The notes under the pieces were generated by a model. That model was not told the origin of the DNA. It was given only the letters and a program-made list of their open reading frames with translations, and did no database searches. Positions 4,295-63,936 of a stretch of 64,000 nucleotides of DNA are shown here, in pieces; positions within the stretch are counted from its first letter, which is position 1; each line of letters opens with the position of its first letter. Both the position numbers and the translations under genes were made by a program. Location: NCBI GenBank assembly GCA_003649205.1, contig QMRC01000002.1, forward strand, positions 208,770 through 272,769. The letters are read 5' to 3'. Source of the DNA: Thermoprotei archaeon (GTDB lineage: Archaea; Thermoproteota; Thermoprotei; Thermoproteales; B15-G16).

Positions 4295-4344
4295 GTGATG
4301 AACCCACCCTTGACTGTACTCATGATGAAACTGTCTCACACTGA
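4295..4344 (+). ncRNA. box C/D guide sRNA
   Basis: The architecture is regular: C box GTGATGA (4295-4301), 12-nt spacer, D' box CTGT (4314-4317), 4-nt gap, C' box ATGATGA (4322-4328), 12-nt spacer, D box CTGA (4341-4344). Two 12-nt spacers between perfect boxes is the standard archaeal dual-guide form. The second guide, AACTGTCTCACA, is complementary to GUGAGACAGUU, which I recall as a universally conserved 23S rRNA stretch upstream of the sarcin-ricin loop. It lies in the gap between radA and the next gene. Confidence 0.85.
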
Positions 4345-7348: not shown

Positions 7349-8770
7349 GTGGTCTTCTCTAGGTACCAGATGTTTACGACATTTCATGAACTAGCAGATT
7401 GTGTAGAGGATGCTGTATGGCGTTTAAAGGGGAGAACTCTTGCTGTTTTCTTCAATCTCTGTCTAGATTCAATACATAGAGTTTCAGAGGATACCCTACG
7501 TAATTTAGAGCTGAGTTCTATTGAAAATAGATGTGGTAGTGTAGATGAGGTTGTGTCTACAGCGCATGAAGTAGTTAAGCGAGGTGTTGTGGAGTCGCTA
7601 ACGGATATCACATACTGCCTCCTTTACTCTATTGTGTTGGGTAGGAGTTTCGAAGTTATCTTACCGGATCCAACTATGAGTAAAATGCTGAGTGAGAAAG
7701 TGAGTAACTATACACTTTCTCTAGGTGGTGTATGCGGATTAGCATCTCTCACCCTACCTAGGCTCGGTTGTAGAGTAATTCTACCAGTAACAACTCCTAA
7801 TCCTACGGTAGTGAACTATTTGAAACATAGTAGCTTAGTTGAAGTTCTCTACTATGAGGATATACTCCATACAGTAGCTAGTGAAGTTGCTCCGTACTTT
7901 CTACATTGGGTCTTTGAGATAGAGACAGGTCTCAAGGTGAGGTTTAAATCATCAATAATAGTGAGTAGAGAATGCTGTAGGTTTATTGCGTCATGTGATT
8001 ACATGACACTTAATTTTCCACTAAATGTGGTGAGCAAATTTGTGAATTACCTCTTTGAAAGACGGGGCCTCGACGCTACCGTTGTTTCTGGATTTCAAGT
8101 ACTTAATAGAGCACTCGATCCAGAGGTCATGAGTAAGCTACGTACTCTACTCAAGCTAATTACTGATTTCTCTCACTCATCTAGATCACATATACATATT
8201 GAGCTAGCTTACTGTAGCGACTTCGAGGTGCTTAAGTATGTAGTGAAAGCATTACCAGATATCGTGTGTGGTATCGGATTTAATGAAGAGGAGTTATCTG
8301 AGGTAGCTAAGTGTATCGGACTCAATTATGGTCAGGACTTCACTACAATGCTGATTGATGTTGCAAGTTCTTTTCTCGAGGGTAACGTACTATATGTCAC
8401 GGTTCACTCACCACACTTTGTGATTTCGGTATCGAGGAGTAAAGAACTAGCTAAATACCTCACTACAGCGGCGGCAGTAGGTAACTTCGGAGTTGCTCTC
8501 CTCAATAAACCTGGTAACCCAAGTGAAGTTCTTACCTATTGTTATAACAAGGGTTCTTACTATATCGAGAAGTTGCGCAGTGTAGTTGAAGGTCTACGTA
8601 GATTAGGTTTCTCGCACATAGGCTCCGGTATCTGGGTAAAGGGAGACACCTACGTATCTACGTACCTCTGCATGAATGTACCACTTGGAAGAAGTGTTGG
8701 TAGAGGTGATACATTTGCCGTCTTTGAGGCAATTGCTTTAAGTGAGCTACTGCATGGAAGTCGTAGGTGA
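7349..8770 (+). CDS. ADP-dependent sugar kinase (phosphofructokinase/glucokinase family)
   Basis: The C-terminal motif SVGRGDTFAVFEAIALSELL matches the catalytic GxGD segment of ADP-dependent kinases, and the segment HIHIELAYCSDFEVLKYVV followed by GIGFNEEEL matches the family's substrate and metal region. Length 473 is usual. The enzyme would phosphorylate fructose-6-phosphate or glucose with ADP in a modified Embden-Meyerhof pathway; which sugar is used cannot be read here. Start is GTG 7349, with ATG 7370 as an alternative. Its TGA stop (8768-8770) lies inside the C box of a downstream guide RNA. Confidence 0.75.
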   Translation: MVFSRYQMFTTFHELADCVEDAVWRLKGRTLAVFFNLCLDSIHRVSEDTLRNLELSSIENRCGSVDEVVSTAHEVVKRGVVESLTDITYCLLYSIVLGRSFEVILPDPTMSKMLSEKVSNYTLSLGGVCGLASLTLPRLGCRVILPVTTPNPTVVNYLKHSSLVEVLYYEDILHTVASEVAPYFLHWVFEIETGLKVRFKSSIIVSRECCRFIASCDYMTLNFPLNVVSKFVNYLFERRGLDATVVSGFQVLNRALDPEVMSKLRTLLKLITDFSHSSRSHIHIELAYCSDFEVLKYVVKALPDIVCGIGFNEEELSEVAKCIGLNYGQDFTTMLIDVASSFLEGNVLYVTVHSPHFVISVSRSKELAKYLTTAAAVGNFGVALLNKPGNPSEVLTYCYNKGSYYIEKLRSVVEGLRRLGFSHIGSGIWVKGDTYVSTYLCMNVPLGRSVGRGDTFAVFEAIALSELLHGSRR

Positions 8771-8815
8771 TGAGTGGGACCTGCACAGATCGATGACGAA
8801 GTTTAACTTCTCTGA
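8767..8815 (+). ncRNA. box C/D guide sRNA overlapping a stop codon
   Basis: C box GTGATGA (8767-8773) includes the TGA stop of the upstream kinase gene. Then a 12-nt spacer, D'-like CAGA (8786-8789) directly joined to C'-like TCGATGA (8790-8796), a 15-nt spacer, and D box CTGA (8812-8815). The internal string CAGATCGATGA and the 12/15 spacing are identical in the candidate at 10221, which is what convinces me. The D' box is not canonical. Confidence 0.55.
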
Positions 8816-8861
8816 TTACGTTGTAGGTATGTTAGGGGAATTGAGGTAGTAAATGATATAG

Positions 8862-10172
8862 CTACTTGATCTTACGTAGTTTAGCAATGAAGAAGCCTGT
8901 TGTATCATGGATATGTGGGTAGAGTCTCTGTGCTGTACTTAGTCCATAGAGACCTGGTAGTCCAATTTTAGGCTCTGCCTCTACCAATTCCACATCATCT
9001 CTACTCTCGAGGATCTCTTTGAGTAACACTTCGTTTTCCTCCAGCGTGAAGGTACAGGTTGAGTATACGAGAACTCCACCAGTTTTCAGTAACTCGATAC
9101 CTCTCAGCAGTAACTGCATCTGCATCTCACGATGTTTCCTCACAATATCTGGAGTTATCCATAACCTAATCTCAGGACTATGCCCTAGCTTACCCAAACT
9201 ACTACAATCCGGATCAACCAATACGTAATCGAATTTCCTCCTAAAGCTGATATATCGTGAATCACAGAGAATTGGTAATATACCATGTGAAACACCCAAT
9301 CTCTCACTTACATTTCGAAGTGCCTGTAGTCTCTTTCGTGACCAATCTAGCGACAATAATGTACAGCGACATCGAGTTATCTGTGCTATGTGTGTACTCT
9401 TACCTCCAGGTGCAGCACAGAGATCAACTACGTAGGACTTTCTCTTAGGTGATAGTACGTGAGTAACGAGTGCAGAGGCTTTATCCTGTATGTGGAAATA
9501 TCCCCTGTGATACTCAGGTACATGGCTGAGATTTATACCGTATTTAACCACACGGAGAACATCAGGTAGATCAGGGTCCTCAATCGTCTCTACACCTCTC
9601 TTAGCTAGTAACCTCATCAATCTCCTCCTACTTACCTTAGTGGTATTAACTCTGATCCATAGCGTAGCTGGTTCATTGAACCTAGCTAGCAACCTCTCAC
9701 ACTCAGCATCACCAAGGAGATTGAGTAAGTACTTCACAACCCATGTAGGTTGAGAGTACTTAATACTGAGCCTCTCAACCACATCACCTATTCTAGAGAT
9801 CATCGAATTCACATCAACATCACGTACCTTGAGCAGATCTCTCAATTTAATCCCGATCTTACTTAGGTAAGGTAAAACCCTCGATACTCTACTTACATCG
9901 ACATTACGAAAGAGTACTTCGTAAATTGTTGCTCTAAGTATATTCCTCAGTAATACGCCACCTACCCTCTCTACACCAAGGACATTAGAAGCTATGTAGT
10001 CAAGTAGCTTAAAGTTTCTCAATACAGCTAGAGCAAAGGCTCTGACTACACCCTTTATGACACTGAGTTCTCGGTACCTACTGAAGTAATCCTCCATCAC
10101 ACCACGGAGAGATAACTTACGTAACTCGACTTCAGTAATTACCTCAGCAACTACAACTTCTATAGGCTTCAT
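8862..10172 (-). CDS. RNA cytosine-C5 methyltransferase (Nop2/Sun/RsmB family)
   Basis: The N-terminal 130 residues resemble the NusB-like helical domain of RsmB-type enzymes. The catalytic domain shows VDLCAAPGGKSTHIAQ (SAM binding), LDWSRKRLQALRN, VLVDPDCSSLGKLG (motif IV) and YSTCTFTLEENE (motif VI with the catalytic cysteine). Motif IV has PDC where bacterial enzymes have APC; the cysteine is kept. The target, rRNA or tRNA, is not determinable. Start ATG 10172. A guide RNA candidate lies upstream on the opposite strand. Confidence 0.9.
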   Translation of the reverse strand: MKPIEVVVAEVITEVELRKLSLRGVMEDYFSRYRELSVIKGVVRAFALAVLRNFKLLDYIASNVLGVERVGGVLLRNILRATIYEVLFRNVDVSRVSRVLPYLSKIGIKLRDLLKVRDVDVNSMISRIGDVVERLSIKYSQPTWVVKYLLNLLGDAECERLLARFNEPATLWIRVNTTKVSRRRLMRLLAKRGVETIEDPDLPDVLRVVKYGINLSHVPEYHRGYFHIQDKASALVTHVLSPKRKSYVVDLCAAPGGKSTHIAQITRCRCTLLSLDWSRKRLQALRNVSERLGVSHGILPILCDSRYISFRRKFDYVLVDPDCSSLGKLGHSPEIRLWITPDIVRKHREMQMQLLLRGIELLKTGGVLVYSTCTFTLEENEVLLKEILESRDDVELVEAEPKIGLPGLYGLSTAQRLYPHIHDTTGFFIAKLRKIK

Positions 10173-10220: not shown

Positions 10221-10269
10221 GTGATGAGGACGCCCTTTACAGATCGATGAAGAGGGCCTTAATCACTGA
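10221..10269 (+). ncRNA. box C/D guide sRNA (CAGATCGATGA type)
   Basis: C box GTGATGA (10221-10227), 12-nt spacer, CAGA joined to TCGATGA (10240-10250), 15-nt spacer, D box CTGA (10266-10269). The inner motif and both spacer lengths equal those of the RNA at 8767 while the guide sequences differ, as expected for members of one guide RNA class. It fills the 100-base gap between two leftward genes and would be transcribed against them. Confidence 0.6.
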
Positions 10270-18186: not shown

Positions 18187-18236
18187 TCAGCTCGCCAGCT
18201 CGCAATCACAGTTCATCAGATAGGTAAACTCATCAC
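18187..18236 (-). ncRNA. box C/D guide sRNA
   Basis: Read on the minus strand: C box GTGATGA (18236-18230), 10-nt spacer, D' CTGA (18219-18216), 6-nt gap, C' GTGATTG (two mismatches), 12-nt spacer, D CTGA (18190-18187). It begins one base after the tatD stop and is antisense to any read-through from that gene. Confidence 0.5.
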
Positions 18237-18467
18237 TGGTACCGGGGAAGTGGGGGCTCGTCGAGGTGAAGCTCGGGCACCCTGTGATTCCCGCCGGAAA
18301 CCTTTCACTCATCGCCCCAAGAATTACCTCAAGATTAGCAACGTTAAAATTTCTTTCCTCTAACGACATCGTAGTGAAGTGATCTCTCTCGAGTATTAGG
18401 AACCTGGGTTTCTGATTGATGAGGATAAGGTCCGCCAGCGATGACATCACCTGATGAACTGTAACCC
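18237..18467. other. GC-rich gene-free stretch before the THUMP-SPOUT gene
   Basis: No convincing reading frame is present. The first 100 bases are unusually GC-rich for an intergenic region here (several runs of G and C, for example GGGGAAGTGGGGGCTCG), and a GTTTCC-GGCG-GGAATC hairpin forms on the minus strand near 18290. This suggests a further structured RNA, but I could not assign boxes. The last 50 bases contain TTGATGA and CGATGA but no proper D box spacing. Confidence 0.3.
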
Positions 18468-22785: not shown

Positions 22786-23562
22786 CTATTGCTTCCTTAA
22801 CTCAGTCCTAACTAATTGAGCAGCCTTTCTAGCAGATAGTACTACGGGAGTCATGTCAAGTACAGGTCTTGGTGATCCGAAGACAGCGTTAGCAGCTAAA
22901 CTGCAGACGACTATACCTGGTAGTACCTTTCGTGTATTAGCAACCATAGCTCTACTAGCTTCCTCTACCCAGTAACCCCTCAACCCTATAACCGTACCAT
23001 CTGGGGTAGGTACCTCTAGGTACGGTACACTTCTTAGTGCAGTCTCAACAACAAGAGCATTTTCCGTCGCATCGACAATAGCTCTAGACCTTATACACAT
23101 TGTGAAGTTACCAATCTCAACAACAACTCCCTGAACAACATATTTTTGCAACTCTCTTGCATATAGTACGTCTCTGAAGTTAGCAGGTAGCAGTACCTTG
23201 ACCTTTCTCTCCAAGCACCTAGCTACGGCCTTGATCATTAGTGTGTAGAGGTCCATGACTAAGAGGTCCCCTGATGAACACTCCTCTACTAGACCATGCT
23301 CCTTGAGTATCTCTATGGCATCTCTCCTGAATATGGCAACACCAACCGCACCTTGGTAAGAGTACTTAACCTCGTAAGGTACTGTACCTTGTAGAACGAG
23401 CACTACCGAGTGCTCTGTAGCTAAGCCAATTGCTACCAGCGGTGAGGCTATACTCGATCCAACGATTACGCAATCACATGTTATGTTTGGTGGGTAGTTT
23501 GTAGCTATGTACTGAAGAATTGAGTTCAGTACCCCGGAATCGCTCATCAATTCGCTGGGCAT
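22786..23562 (-). CDS. divergent Thi4-like (thiazole synthase family) protein
   Basis: The C-terminus PGIVVCSLAANAVFGSPRPVLDMTPVVLSARKAA matches the Thi4/ribose-1,5-bisphosphate isomerase family (usual wording AGMAANAV.G.PRMGP.FG.M..SGKKAA). The dinucleotide motif DCVIVGSSIASPLVA has lost the glycines of GxGxxG, and the usual DATGHD is DATENA. So NAD binding and chemistry may differ from true thiazole synthase. I chose ATG 23562 with GGTGAT seven bases upstream; other starts to 23577 exist. Confidence 0.6.
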   Translation of the reverse strand: MPSELMSDSGVLNSILQYIATNYPPNITCDCVIVGSSIASPLVAIGLATEHSVVLVLQGTVPYEVKYSYQGAVGVAIFRRDAIEILKEHGLVEECSSGDLLVMDLYTLMIKAVARCLERKVKVLLPANFRDVLYARELQKYVVQGVVVEIGNFTMCIRSRAIVDATENALVVETALRSVPYLEVPTPDGTVIGLRGYWVEEASRAMVANTRKVLPGIVVCSLAANAVFGSPRPVLDMTPVVLSARKAAQLVRTELRKQ

Positions 23563-23612
23563 GATTCTCATCACCACAGAGTAAATAACCTAATCTCGAA
23601 CCCGAGTTCACT

Positions 23613-29736: not shown

Positions 29737-29824
29737 GGCCCCGTCGTCTAGCGGTTAGGATGCCCGCCTTACGAGCACCTGCTGAGAGAGCGGGAGGTCC
29801 CGGGTTCGAATCCCGGCGGGGCCA
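29737..29824 (+). tRNA. tRNA-Val(TAC) with 15-nt intron
   Basis: Acceptor GGCCCCG pairs with CGGGGCC, T arm CCCGGGTTCGAATCCCGG. The anticodon stem CCCGC/GCGGG encloses 22 bases; removing 15 (29774-29788, canonical 37/38 position) leaves loop CTTACGA with anticodon TAC. The body matches the intron-less tRNA-Val(GAC) at 40133. CCA is encoded (29825-29827). Confidence 0.9.
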
Positions 29825-30033
29825 CCAAATCAATACACTTCGTAAACCCCTCCCTCGGTAGCTCCTATACCTATAGCACCTAACCTAAGCTGTCAGCTAC
29901 TCAAGATTACTTACTCCAGTTTCTTACTCCTGATCTGTTCTTTTCGTTTGATGTCCTGTTCGTATGCTTGAGAGAAAGTTTATTTACTCTCTTCACCTGC
30001 CTCCTCGCAGGATTGAGGTAGAGTTGGTGTGGT
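29825..30033. other. gene-free gap after tRNA-Val
   Basis: No supported gene. The end of the stretch contains AGTTTATTTACTC (about 29978-29990), a TATA-like element about 45-55 bases before the start of the membrane protein gene. Confidence 0.4.

Positions 30034-33330: not shown

Positions 33331-33331
<1 letters not shown>
33092..33331 (-). CDS. small winged-helix-like protein
   Basis: The 79 residues read as a three-helix winged domain (IPLHVAILEIVRKKQQIREDELMEALKAIY, then SEVIKTLMRLELEGLIQVEEM and a basic end). No known family name comes to mind. It is squeezed between cdc48 and fen, sharing one base with the cdc48 stop, and so is probably translated from the same message. It may bind DNA or serve as a protein adaptor. 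Confidence 0.65.
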
Positions 33332-35529
<2,198 letters not shown>

Positions 35530-41013: not shown

Positions 41014-41289
41014 ATGACCTCTCTCGCACCTAAAATTGATCACAGTAAGTGCATCGGGTGTGGTATCTGCTTCTTCGTCTGTCCCACTAATCCCAAGGTA
41101 TTTCAACCCTGTAGAGGATTGTCTTGGGTTGTTCATCCTGAAGCCTGTACAGGATGTGGACGCTGTGTCAAGTACTGCCCAGTACACGCAATAGAGCTAG
41201 TACCTCTTGAGCATGCAGGACCAAAACTACCAAGAGACTTCATAGGAGAAGTTGTTATAGGGAAGTTAATCGGGAAAGTGAAGCAGTGA
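41014..41289 (+). CDS. 2[4Fe-4S] ferredoxin
   Basis: Two clusters are clear: CIGCGICFFVCPTNP and CTGCGRCVKYCP, separated by about 25 residues. Length 91. GGAGGT lies six bases before ATG 41014; the reading frame is open further upstream through tRNA-Pro, but that extension is an artefact. Likely a general low-potential electron carrier for enzymes such as the GAPOR-like protein. Its TGA stop (41287-41289) lies inside the C box of a guide RNA. Confidence 0.9.
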   Translation: MTSLAPKIDHSKCIGCGICFFVCPTNPKVFQPCRGLSWVVHPEACTGCGRCVKYCPVHAIELVPLEHAGPKLPRDFIGEVVIGKLIGKVKQ

Positions 41290-41335
41290 TGAGGAGTACC
41301 CTCGCCAGATAGGTGAAGAGTAGCCCAGTAGCTGA
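41286..41335 (+). ncRNA. box C/D guide sRNA overlapping a stop codon
   Basis: C box GTGATGA (41286-41292) contains the ferredoxin stop codon. Then a 13-nt spacer, CAGA (41306-41309), C'-like TAGGTGA (41310-41316), a 15-nt spacer and D box CTGA (41332-41335). The layout follows the RNAs at 8767 and 10221, although C' is degenerate. Confidence 0.45.
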
Positions 41336-43321: not shown

Positions 43322-43376
43322 GTGATGAGAACCACCGGAGCTTAGTTTCTAGGTGCTGAGAGAGTCCCGCGCCTGA
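43322..43376 (+). ncRNA. box C/D guide sRNA
   Basis: C box GTGATGA (43322-43328), 12-nt spacer, weak D' CTTA (43341-43344), 8-nt gap, C' GTGCTGA (one mismatch, 43353-43359), 13-nt spacer, D CTGA (43373-43376). It lies between two divergent genes. Confidence 0.6.
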
Positions 43377-49015: not shown

Positions 49016-49064
49016 TCAGAAGCAAGAGGCTTCATCAACATTCAGTAGTCGAGTTGATCATCAT
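49016..49064 (-). ncRNA. box C/D guide sRNA
   Basis: On the minus strand: C ATGATGA (49064-49058), 12-nt spacer, D' CTGA (49045-49042), 3-nt gap, C' TTGATGA (49038-49032), 12-nt spacer, D CTGA (49019-49016). All boxes are canonical and both spacers are 12 nt. TATA-like GATTTATC lies about 40 bases upstream. Confidence 0.8.
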
Positions 49065-49157
49065 CTAGAGACTACATCTCTACACCGAAGTCACTTAGAG
49101 TACTGATAAATCAAACTAATATCTCCATTTTCGACAGTTATCGAGTAGGTGCTCAAC

Positions 49158-50498
49158 ATGAGTGGTCTAGAGGAAGTTCTGCACGAACTTGAGAGTAGGT
49201 TTGAGGTTAAGAGGGTAAGAACACCATTGTCAGTAATCTACGAGATCCCTGCTGTGATCAAGTACTTCGATAGAGGTCCTACTCTCGTATTTACGAGGGT
49301 TAAGGAAGACGTTTGTGGTGTTGTTGCTGCGAATTTAGTAAATACTAGAAGCAAGGTAATGTACTACCTTGGTGTAGGGTCCGATGAGGAGCTTTATAGG
49401 AAGATCTTGGATTCAGAGAGTAAGGTTGGGAAGATTACTGAAGTTTCATCACATGACTATAAGGAGATTGAGGTGAATCTCGAGAAGCTACCTGTTCTCA
49501 AGTACTATGAAGGTGATGCAGGTAGGTACGTAACTAGTGCTGTGGTTATTGCTAAGGATCCAGAGACAGGTTACCACAATCTCTCTGTTCATAGAATACT
49601 CGTACTTGGTCGAGATGTAGCTACGTTAAGGATTGTGCCACGACACCTATACACGATATGTGAACACTATAGGCAGAGAGGTATTACGAAGGTTCCGGTA
49701 GCTGTGTGCATAGGAGTTCACCCACTACTACTCTTCGCAGCATCGTGTTCACCACCATTCGGGTTCTCGGAGTACCACGTAGCTAGTAACTTCATGAATG
49801 CTGATGTGAGGGTATGTGATCTAGGTAATGGAGTGTTGGTACCTATCGACTCGGAGTACGTACTACTTGGTTACATCGACCTAGAGACACTAGTAGACGA
49901 AGGTCCATTCACTGACATTCTCGAGCTATATGATAAGGTGAGGAAGCAGCCACTGCTCAAGGTAGAGAAGATCTACGTGCTTAGGGATGTACCCTACTAC
50001 CACGCAATTCTACCAGGTGGAGCAGAGCACAAGCTATTGATGGCGCTTGAGAGAGAGGCTAGGATATGGAATTTCGTTAGAGCTGTAGTACCCTACGTTA
50101 AGGCGGTCAGATTAACGTGGGCCGGTGGATGCTGGTTACACGCAGTTATCTCAATTAGGAAGATCACTGATGGTGATGCAAAGAACGCGATCATGGCAGC
50201 CTTTGCGGCACACCCCTCACTTAAGCATGTTATCGTCGTTGATGAGGATATTGACATTGATAATCCTGAAGAAGTTGAGTGGGCCATAGCAACGAGATTT
50301 AGAGCTGATAGAGGGCTTGTACTCGTACAGTACGTAAGAGGTTCAACACTTGACCCCTCAGCTATAGATCAAGAACAAGGGTTAACGACTAAGATGGGGA
50401 TAGATGCTACCTACCCAAGAGCTGAGAGGAGGAAGTTTGAGAAAGCTAGAATACCGATAAACGTAAGGGAGCTCATAGAGAAGCTAGAGGTGTACTGA
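49158..50498 (+). CDS. UbiD-family decarboxylase, probable anhydromevalonate phosphate decarboxylase
   Basis: UbiD-family wording is clear: SSHDYKEIEVNLEKLPVLKYYEGDAGRYVTSAVVIAKDPETGYHNLSVHRI and PFGFSEYHVASNF..., ending in PSAIDQEQGLTTKMGIDAT. UbiD enzymes use prenylated FMN. Next to both phosphomevalonate dehydratase subunits, the parsimonious role is decarboxylation of trans-anhydromevalonate 5-phosphate to isopentenyl phosphate. Start ATG 49158 has AGGTG six bases upstream; GTG 49149 is the alternative. Confidence 0.85.
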   Translation: MSGLEEVLHELESRFEVKRVRTPLSVIYEIPAVIKYFDRGPTLVFTRVKEDVCGVVAANLVNTRSKVMYYLGVGSDEELYRKILDSESKVGKITEVSSHDYKEIEVNLEKLPVLKYYEGDAGRYVTSAVVIAKDPETGYHNLSVHRILVLGRDVATLRIVPRHLYTICEHYRQRGITKVPVAVCIGVHPLLLFAASCSPPFGFSEYHVASNFMNADVRVCDLGNGVLVPIDSEYVLLGYIDLETLVDEGPFTDILELYDKVRKQPLLKVEKIYVLRDVPYYHAILPGGAEHKLLMALEREARIWNFVRAVVPYVKAVRLTWAGGCWLHAVISIRKITDGDAKNAIMAAFAAHPSLKHVIVVDEDIDIDNPEEVEWAIATRFRADRGLVLVQYVRGSTLDPSAIDQEQGLTTKMGIDATYPRAERRKFEKARIPINVRELIEKLEVY

Positions 50499-54720: not shown

Positions 54721-54771
54721 TCAGAAGAGGCTAGCCTACATCACTTCCTCAGCCCGTATAAGATTCATCAC
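54721..54771 (-). ncRNA. box C/D guide sRNA
   Basis: On the minus strand: C GTGATGA (54771-54765), 12-nt spacer, D' CTGA (54752-54749), 4-nt gap, C' GTGATGT (54744-54738), 13-nt spacer, D CTGA (54724-54721). TATA-like GTTTAAGAC lies 25-35 bases upstream. Confidence 0.8.
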
Positions 54772-58258: not shown

Positions 58259-58269
58259 AGGTGGTGTGT

Positions 58270-59856
58270 ATGAACCTCGAGTACACACCCATACTACACG
58301 TACCAGCACTAGTACCAATACTAGCTGTTGGATCAGCTTTTGCACTACCACTAATACATCTAGTGACCAAGAGCAGGAAGGTATGTGAGTACTTCGTAGT
58401 GACGATAACCGGTATCGAGCTAGTACTAACGACGATTGTCCTACACCTAGCATACACAAGTACTAAACCCATCATCTACACCTTTGGTGCTTGGCCACCA
58501 CCGGTAGGTATCGTGTATGAGATAGATCGCTTCAGCGCACTACTTGGTGTATTAGCAGCAGTGCTCTTCTTCACAGCAGCACTCTACAGTACTAAGTACC
58601 TTGAGAAGGATTACGGAGTTGAGTGGTACTACACACTGCTTCTCGGATTTGAAGCAGGTATCGTAGGTTGCGCATACACAGGTGATATCTTTAATCTCTT
58701 CGTAATGTTCGAAGTACTATCCATATCAGCTTACGCACTGGTAGCATTTAGGAAGGATGTACCTGAAGCAGTTGAAGGCAGTCTCAAGTACGCAATCGTT
58801 GGTTCAGTAGCAACCACGATATACTTCATAGCAATTACCTTCATCTACGGAAGCTTTGGAACACTTAACATGGCCGATCTAGCAGCTAAAGTGAGAGGGT
58901 TAACATTTCCAGTAACAGGTACAGCACTAGGTAACGTACACGTGGCAACAGGCATAGCACTAGCACTCATCGTGTGGGCATTCTCAATAGAGGCAGCACT
59001 AGTACCAAATCACTTTTGGTTACCAGACGCGTACGTTGGTGCACCAGTAACATTCTCAGCAATATCATCGGGAGCAGCGGTCAACATCAGTCTCTACATA
59101 ATTGCTAGGTACCTCTACACCATACTACAGGGTAGAGATGGACCAGCAGCACCGACAGTAGAGGCAGTACTTATAGCGTTGGTAGTCATGGGTTGTCTCT
59201 CAGCTATAGTCGGTTCAGTTCTCATGATAGTTCAGAAGGACATCAATAGGCTGATAGCGTACAGCACGATAGTGAATTCAGGTTACATAGCTATTGGACT
59301 AGGCATCGGGACACCACTTGGAATAGTAGCAGCTCTCTTCCACATGATAAACCACGCAGTAGCTAAGGCATTGCTCTTCTTCTGTGCAGGAAACTACGTA
59401 CACGTAGTAGGTTCGAGAGATCTAGATGACTTAGCTGGTGTAGGTAAGAAGATGCCACTAACAACCATTGGACTCGTTGTAGGTGCACTTGCACTAGCAG
59501 GAGTACCACCACTAAACTGCTTCATGAGCAAGCTAATACTAGCTCAAGCCCTCTTCGAGGCAAACCTCACACCACTAATAGCAGTGATCGTATTTGCAAG
59601 CGTACTCTCACTAATGGCGTACTTAAAGATCATATACAATGTCTACTGTAGAGCACCAGTCAAGAAACTACCTGAAGCAAGAGAACACCCACTAATGGCA
59701 TACCCAGTAATTGCGTATGCGATTACATGCATAGTTTTCGGACTACTCGCACCAATACTAGTACCCACAGCAATAGAACCAGCAGTAACTGACTTATTGA
59801 ACACAGATAACTACATTAAGGCAGCTATGGAGATAGCTGAGAAGTTACTGAGGTGA
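58270..59856 (+). CDS. MrpD/NuoN-like proton-translocating subunit (MbhH)
   Basis: About 14 membrane helices over 528 residues. Features: GDIFNLFVMFEVLSISAYALVAF (with the conserved Glu), a Lys-bearing VEGSLKYAIVGSVATTIYF, and a central AFSIEAALVPNHFWLPDAY that is typical of MrpD/NuoLMN. ATG 58270 is preferred, with AGGTG upstream; GTG 58261 is the alternative. Likely the ion-pumping antiporter unit. Confidence 0.92.
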   Translation: MNLEYTPILHVPALVPILAVGSAFALPLIHLVTKSRKVCEYFVVTITGIELVLTTIVLHLAYTSTKPIIYTFGAWPPPVGIVYEIDRFSALLGVLAAVLFFTAALYSTKYLEKDYGVEWYYTLLLGFEAGIVGCAYTGDIFNLFVMFEVLSISAYALVAFRKDVPEAVEGSLKYAIVGSVATTIYFIAITFIYGSFGTLNMADLAAKVRGLTFPVTGTALGNVHVATGIALALIVWAFSIEAALVPNHFWLPDAYVGAPVTFSAISSGAAVNISLYIIARYLYTILQGRDGPAAPTVEAVLIALVVMGCLSAIVGSVLMIVQKDINRLIAYSTIVNSGYIAIGLGIGTPLGIVAALFHMINHAVAKALLFFCAGNYVHVVGSRDLDDLAGVGKKMPLTTIGLVVGALALAGVPPLNCFMSKLILAQALFEANLTPLIAVIVFASVLSLMAYLKIIYNVYCRAPVKKLPEAREHPLMAYPVIAYAITCIVFGLLAPILVPTAIEPAVTDLLNTDNYIKAAMEIAEKLLR

Positions 59857-63883: not shown

Positions 63884-63936
63884 GTGATGACTAACTGGGC
63901 CGGCCTTGATTGGTGATGTGTACCCGCCCCCTCTGA
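63884..63936 (+). ncRNA. box C/D guide sRNA
   Basis: C GTGATGA (63884-63890), 15-nt spacer, D'-like TTGA (63906-63909), 3-nt gap, C' GTGATGT (63913-63919), 13-nt spacer, D CTGA (63933-63936). The upstream TATA box is at the right distance. Confidence 0.7.

Follow-up and report, generated by a model that had tools for sequence, protein, structure and literature searches.

The 3' end of the gene for an adenosine diphosphate (ADP)-dependent sugar kinase in a Thermoprotei archaeon (GenBank assembly GCA_003649205.1) raises the question of whether a single TGA both terminates the protein-coding gene and forms part of a guide RNA gene and, if so, how such an RNA would be made. The locus was analysed within a 64,000-nucleotide stretch of contig QMRC01000002.1 (positions 208,770 to 272,769 of the forward strand), referred to here as the window. 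At 8767-8815 on the + strand we found the complete layout of an archaeal C/D box small RNA (sRNA), i.e. C box, guide of 12 nucleotides, D' box, linker of 3 nucleotides, C' box, guide of 12 nucleotides and D box. It is highly probable, judging from the sequence, that the kinase 3' end carries a C/D box sRNA gene of the ordinary archaeal kind, that the stop codon is provided by its C box and that the RNA is made by processing of the mRNA. The elements of the locus are as follows:

7349-8770, + strand: open reading frame (ORF) of the ADP-dependent sugar kinase, the host gene, 473 amino acids, GTG start as listed
8767-8773, + strand: C box GTGATGA, which fits RUGAUGA
8768-8770, + strand: TGA stop codon of the kinase, within the C box (its bases 2-4)
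8774-8785, + strand: guide 5' of the D' box, 12 nucleotides, GTGGGACCTGCA
8786-8789, + strand: D' box CAGA, three of four consensus bases, one base from CTGA
Between the D' box (8786-8789) and the C' box (8793-8799), + strand: linker TCG, 3 nucleotides
8793-8799, + strand: C' box ATGACGA, six of seven consensus bases
8800-8811, + strand: guide 5' of the D box, 12 nucleotides, AGTTTAACTTCT
8812-8815, + strand: D box CTGA, which fits CUGA
8762-8766 (CGTAG, the last kinase codons) with 8816-8820 (TTACG), + strand: possible terminal stem of 5 base pairs, equalled by 0.8% of random positions

The host ORF matched PF04587 (ADP-specific phosphofructokinase/glucokinase; E 6.9e-30). Direct reading of its 3' end gives AGG TGA, and an extra in-frame TGA follows immediately at 8771-8773. 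An earlier note on this DNA had placed the kinase stop within the C box GTGATGA of a guide RNA at 8767-8815, and these coordinates proved to be exact. It had also described the same arrangement at the stop codon of a ferredoxin gene, which we confirmed:

41014-41289, + strand: ferredoxin ORF, the second host gene, ATG at 41014 by inspection, stop codon at 41287-41289
41286-41335, + strand: second stop-sharing C/D sRNA candidate, GTGATGA / guide of 13 / CAGA / TAG / GTGAAGA / guide of 12 / CTGA

The ferredoxin is of the two-cluster type (Fer4 families), and the final base of its stop (41289) lies within GTGATGA at 41286-41292. The guide lengths are typical at both loci. A third stop-sharing C box was found elsewhere in the genome, on contig C3 at 74281, where the host is a gene for a HAD hydrolase; the stop of a real upstream gene thus lies within the C box at the PF04587 gene (8767), the Fer4 gene (41286) and the HAD hydrolase gene (C3 74281).

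The architecture occurs far more often than chance would produce it. The scanner looked on both strands for the four boxes (C, D', C' and D) at normal spacings (score of at least 18.5 in the window) and found nine architectures in the window. Across 200 shuffles that preserved the dinucleotides the average was 0.02, and no shuffle had more than 1. For bare C boxes the excess was only mild (28 versus 18.5 ± 4.3 in the shuffles), and the excess therefore resides in the whole architecture and not in the C box alone. The scan of the genome covered the window and 400 kb more (464 kb) with slightly looser rules; the gene calls used in the scans were crude (long ORFs, greedy choice). It returned 33 rows, which were reduced to 29 distinct candidate C/D places by dropping three inverted copies on C3 and counting two overlapping rows on C3 as one. 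At three of these places (8767, 41286 and C3 74281) the C box contained the stop codon, with an identical offset, and two more overlapped a stop outside the C box (C1 186926 at +20; C3 47423 by one base). Another of the 29, at 23526-23574 of the window (− strand), lies wholly within a long ORF and is probably a chance match.

The pairing of each guide with ribosomal RNA (rRNA) was compared with that of 40 shuffled guides, using the 16S and 23S sequences of five relatives from the order because a search of the assembly turned up no rRNA genes of the species itself. A conserved rRNA site that outperformed 39 or more of the 40 shuffles was obtained for 5 of the 18 window guides: the D' guide of 4295, both guides of 10221, the D guide of 41286 and the D guide of 18187. 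The D guide of 41286 pairs over 9-10 base pairs near position 525 of the small-subunit (SSU) rRNA in all five relatives, and 1 of 40 shuffles was as good. The conserved sites of these five guides support both the C/D class and the ferredoxin example. The genome also encodes the methyltransferase fibrillarin (PF01269, E 7.6e-104, G000:C1:50992-51669), the one protein of the C/D particle that the search covered. With the architecture far beyond the shuffles, sister guides that fit conserved rRNA sites and fibrillarin in the same genome, a guide RNA, as the earlier note proposed, is the best reading of 8767-8815.

Several results weigh against this reading. Besides the missing rRNA genes, a search of the window with Rfam at gathering thresholds returned five transfer RNAs (tRNAs) only and no C/D family. 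The best rRNA pairing of the 8767 D' guide, 10 base pairs near position 953 of the large-subunit (LSU) rRNA in four of the five relatives, was equalled by 8 of 40 shuffles and is not significant. The D guide had no target that beat its shuffles (23 of 40 were as good against rRNA and 57 of 60 against tRNA). The kinase was found in its own genome only among the 81 genomes of the class search, and the pattern formed by the C box and the D' guide likewise in its own genome only among 45 genomes of the order. As regards the guides, the D' guide also pairs over 10 base pairs with tRNA-Arg(CCT) among the 33 distinct tRNA sequences of the genome, which 2 of 60 shuffles equalled; since many guides were tested, this match can be regarded as a lead only. 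The D guide looks like an orphan. In a six-species Pyrobaculum set, 28% of guides were reported to be without significant targets, and gene overlap was suggested as one cause (PMC7994747).

As regards conservation, the earlier note had proposed comparing the junction with related genomes, and no searched relative carries the kinase junction, which does not refute the RNA. The kinase was not found in 40 relatives from the order, and none of the 14 candidate stretches obtained by a peptide-pattern scan of genome contigs was confirmed as a kinase. At four named loci of the neighbouring RsmB/F-like methyltransferase no kinase was detected by tblastn in the stretch examined, and in a DNA search with 8600-9000 the relatives matched the end of the methyltransferase gene only (query 262-331), not the sRNA. 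The pattern of guide plus CTGA matched 2 of 45 genomes, in neither case within a C/D architecture, and its reversed control matched 5 genomes. Ferredoxin matches were present in all 41 genomes, but those outside the own genome are 30-50% identical and probably represent paralogues; no C/D architecture lay on the ferredoxin stop in the 29 loci of relatives covered, out of a longer list. The missing conservation is neither for nor against the RNA, because the genomes searched included no other member of the family, and guides of this kind reportedly change fast in evolution (PMC7994747). In three relatives from the order (L082, L083 and L089), a C/D candidate whose guides are similar lies on the opposite strand, about 740 nucleotides away from a ferredoxin-like gene; L085 has one weak C/D candidate within a long ORF.

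The earlier note had left the origin of the RNA between processing from the mRNA 3' end and an internal promoter. The promoter matrix drew only on the upstream regions of 34 tRNA genes in this genome (consensus GAAAAACATAAAAA), and 28 of these training sequences score beyond the 99th percentile of random positions. No tRNA-type promoter was found upstream of 8767, where 40% of random positions reach the score of the best site, or of 41286, where 19% do; the corresponding value for C3 74281 is 24%. Processing from the mRNA 3' end is therefore favoured over the internal promoter, and both stop-sharing sRNAs in the window more likely represent tails of their host mRNAs. The kinase transcript would most likely carry the 8767 sRNA as its tail, and the C/D and C'/D' motifs of the sRNA would fold as a kink-turn (k-turn) and a kink-loop (k-loop). 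L7Ae, Nop5 and fibrillarin would bind and protect a stretch of about 55 nucleotides, and the flanks would be trimmed off. The resulting particle would 2'-O-methylate an RNA at the position that faces guide nucleotide five, counted upstream from the D' box, tentatively in LSU rRNA near 953 or in tRNA-Arg(CCT). A transcript made into sRNA would lose its stop codon, so that one molecule could be a complete mRNA or a source of sRNA but not both. The terminal stem gives this scheme weak support, since the mean flank pairing over 30 candidate rows was not above that of partner-shuffled flanks (2.6 versus 2.3 of 6, p 0.07) despite the five contiguous pairs at 8767. Folding by minimum free energy showed no k-turn at 8767 or 41286 and was not used.

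It is unlikely that the sRNA is real but starts from a promoter of its own within the kinase coding region. Promoter-like upstream sequences (at most 1% of the background) were present at three of the 29 C/D places (C3 47423, 76049 and 115939), and some sRNAs of this genome may thus have one; the best sites upstream of 8767 and 41286 are nevertheless weak on the tRNA-derived matrix. Quite improbable is the possibility that there is no RNA gene at all and that GTGATGA is a mere tandem stop (TGA TGA) followed by boxes that arose by chance. The lack of a firm rRNA target for either 8767 guide would suit it, as would the TGATGA stops that have no architecture. Five ORFs of the window end in TGATGA and two of them have the architecture; the others (33331-35526, − strand; 49149-50498, + strand; 58261-59856, + strand) do not, and neither do two rows on C3, which are one sequence in an inverted copy. 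However, each of the three in the window shares 1 to 4 bases with the start of the ORF that follows. Moreover, even at the loosest score the shuffles contained 0.095 architectures each for about 18.5 C boxes, yet C/D boxes stand at three of the eight TGATGA-ending ORFs in the 464 kb (three of seven without the duplicate).

We give very little credence to a mainly cis-acting element, in which an L7Ae-bound k-turn at the stop would modulate termination on the kinase mRNA or its stability, and any guide role would be secondary or lost. L7Ae binding to k-turns in archaeal mRNAs has been reported (PMC5539422) and the weak 8767 guides do not force a guide function, but the good SSU match of the 41286 guide and the typical guide lengths at both sites argue for guides. 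Just as doubtful is a shared stop acting as a switch, in which assembly of the small ribonucleoprotein (sRNP) would compete with translation termination and tie kinase and ferredoxin output to the demand for guide particles, thereby coupling central metabolism to ribosome modification.

Processing of an ordinary C/D box sRNA from the kinase mRNA also agrees with what has been published. The earlier note had treated the arrangement as notable; this was not borne out, since PMC7994747 describes it as common in archaea, and the finding is real but ordinary, a further example of a published pattern. According to that paper, 25% of archaeal C/D sRNA genes carry the stop of the upstream gene, with almost 50% of the shared stops falling within the C box, and most C/D sRNA genes need no promoter of their own; the studies which it summarises, Tripp et al. 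(2017) and Lui et al. (2018), described archaeal C/D genes that overlap an ORF 3' end with the stop in the C box. The frequency found here (3 of 29) is close to the approximately 12% which these proportions imply. The 8767 locus is like these published cases in box motifs, guide spacing, a C-box TGA used as stop and the apparent lack of a promoter; the host genes and the lineage are other ones, one guide is apparently an orphan, and no difference in mechanism is known. In Nanoarchaeum equitans most C/D box sRNAs overlap mRNA sequences and most are without easily identified promoters, just as here, whereas a stop within the C box is not described in the available part of the report (PMC3491384). 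In the published pattern, guide RNA genes parasitise the ends of protein genes, helped by the double use of TGA as a stop codon and as C-box sequence. The present examples come from a lineage with no other family member in the order genomes searched. They provide coordinates for several unannotated candidate guide RNAs, and gene ends in such genomes need to be checked for RNAs. Stop-sharing would matter more if it were regulatory; nothing here requires regulation.

The remaining C/D sRNA candidates of the window, all without an Rfam match at gathering thresholds, are the following:

10221-10269, + strand: comparison candidate with no stop overlap, a double guide for LSU ~1130 and ~1167, 37 nucleotides apart, in five of five relatives
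4295-4344, 43322-43376 and 63884-63936, + strand: C/D sRNA candidates
18187-18236, 49016-49064 and 54721-54771, − strand: C/D sRNA candidates

The D'-linker-C' segments of 8767 (8786-8799) and 10221 (10240-10253) are identical except for one base (CAGATCGATGA, then C or A, then GA). The two candidates flank the methyltransferase gene and possibly represent a duplicated sRNA with new guides. An ORF of 87 amino acids at 18187-18450 (− strand), without a Pfam match, encloses a whole C/D candidate and has its end within the D box of that candidate; this ORF is unlikely to be a gene. Around position 145715 of contig C3 (L069), genes, sRNAs and a tRNA appear as inverted copies (for example 115939/175442 and 94859/196521; tRNA at 145646 on the + strand and 145710 on the − strand), which makes C3 a palindromic contig, likely an assembly artefact. 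At 29737-29827 (+ strand) of the window, ARAGORN gives tRNA-Lys(CTT) by default and tRNA-Val(TAC) with introns allowed.
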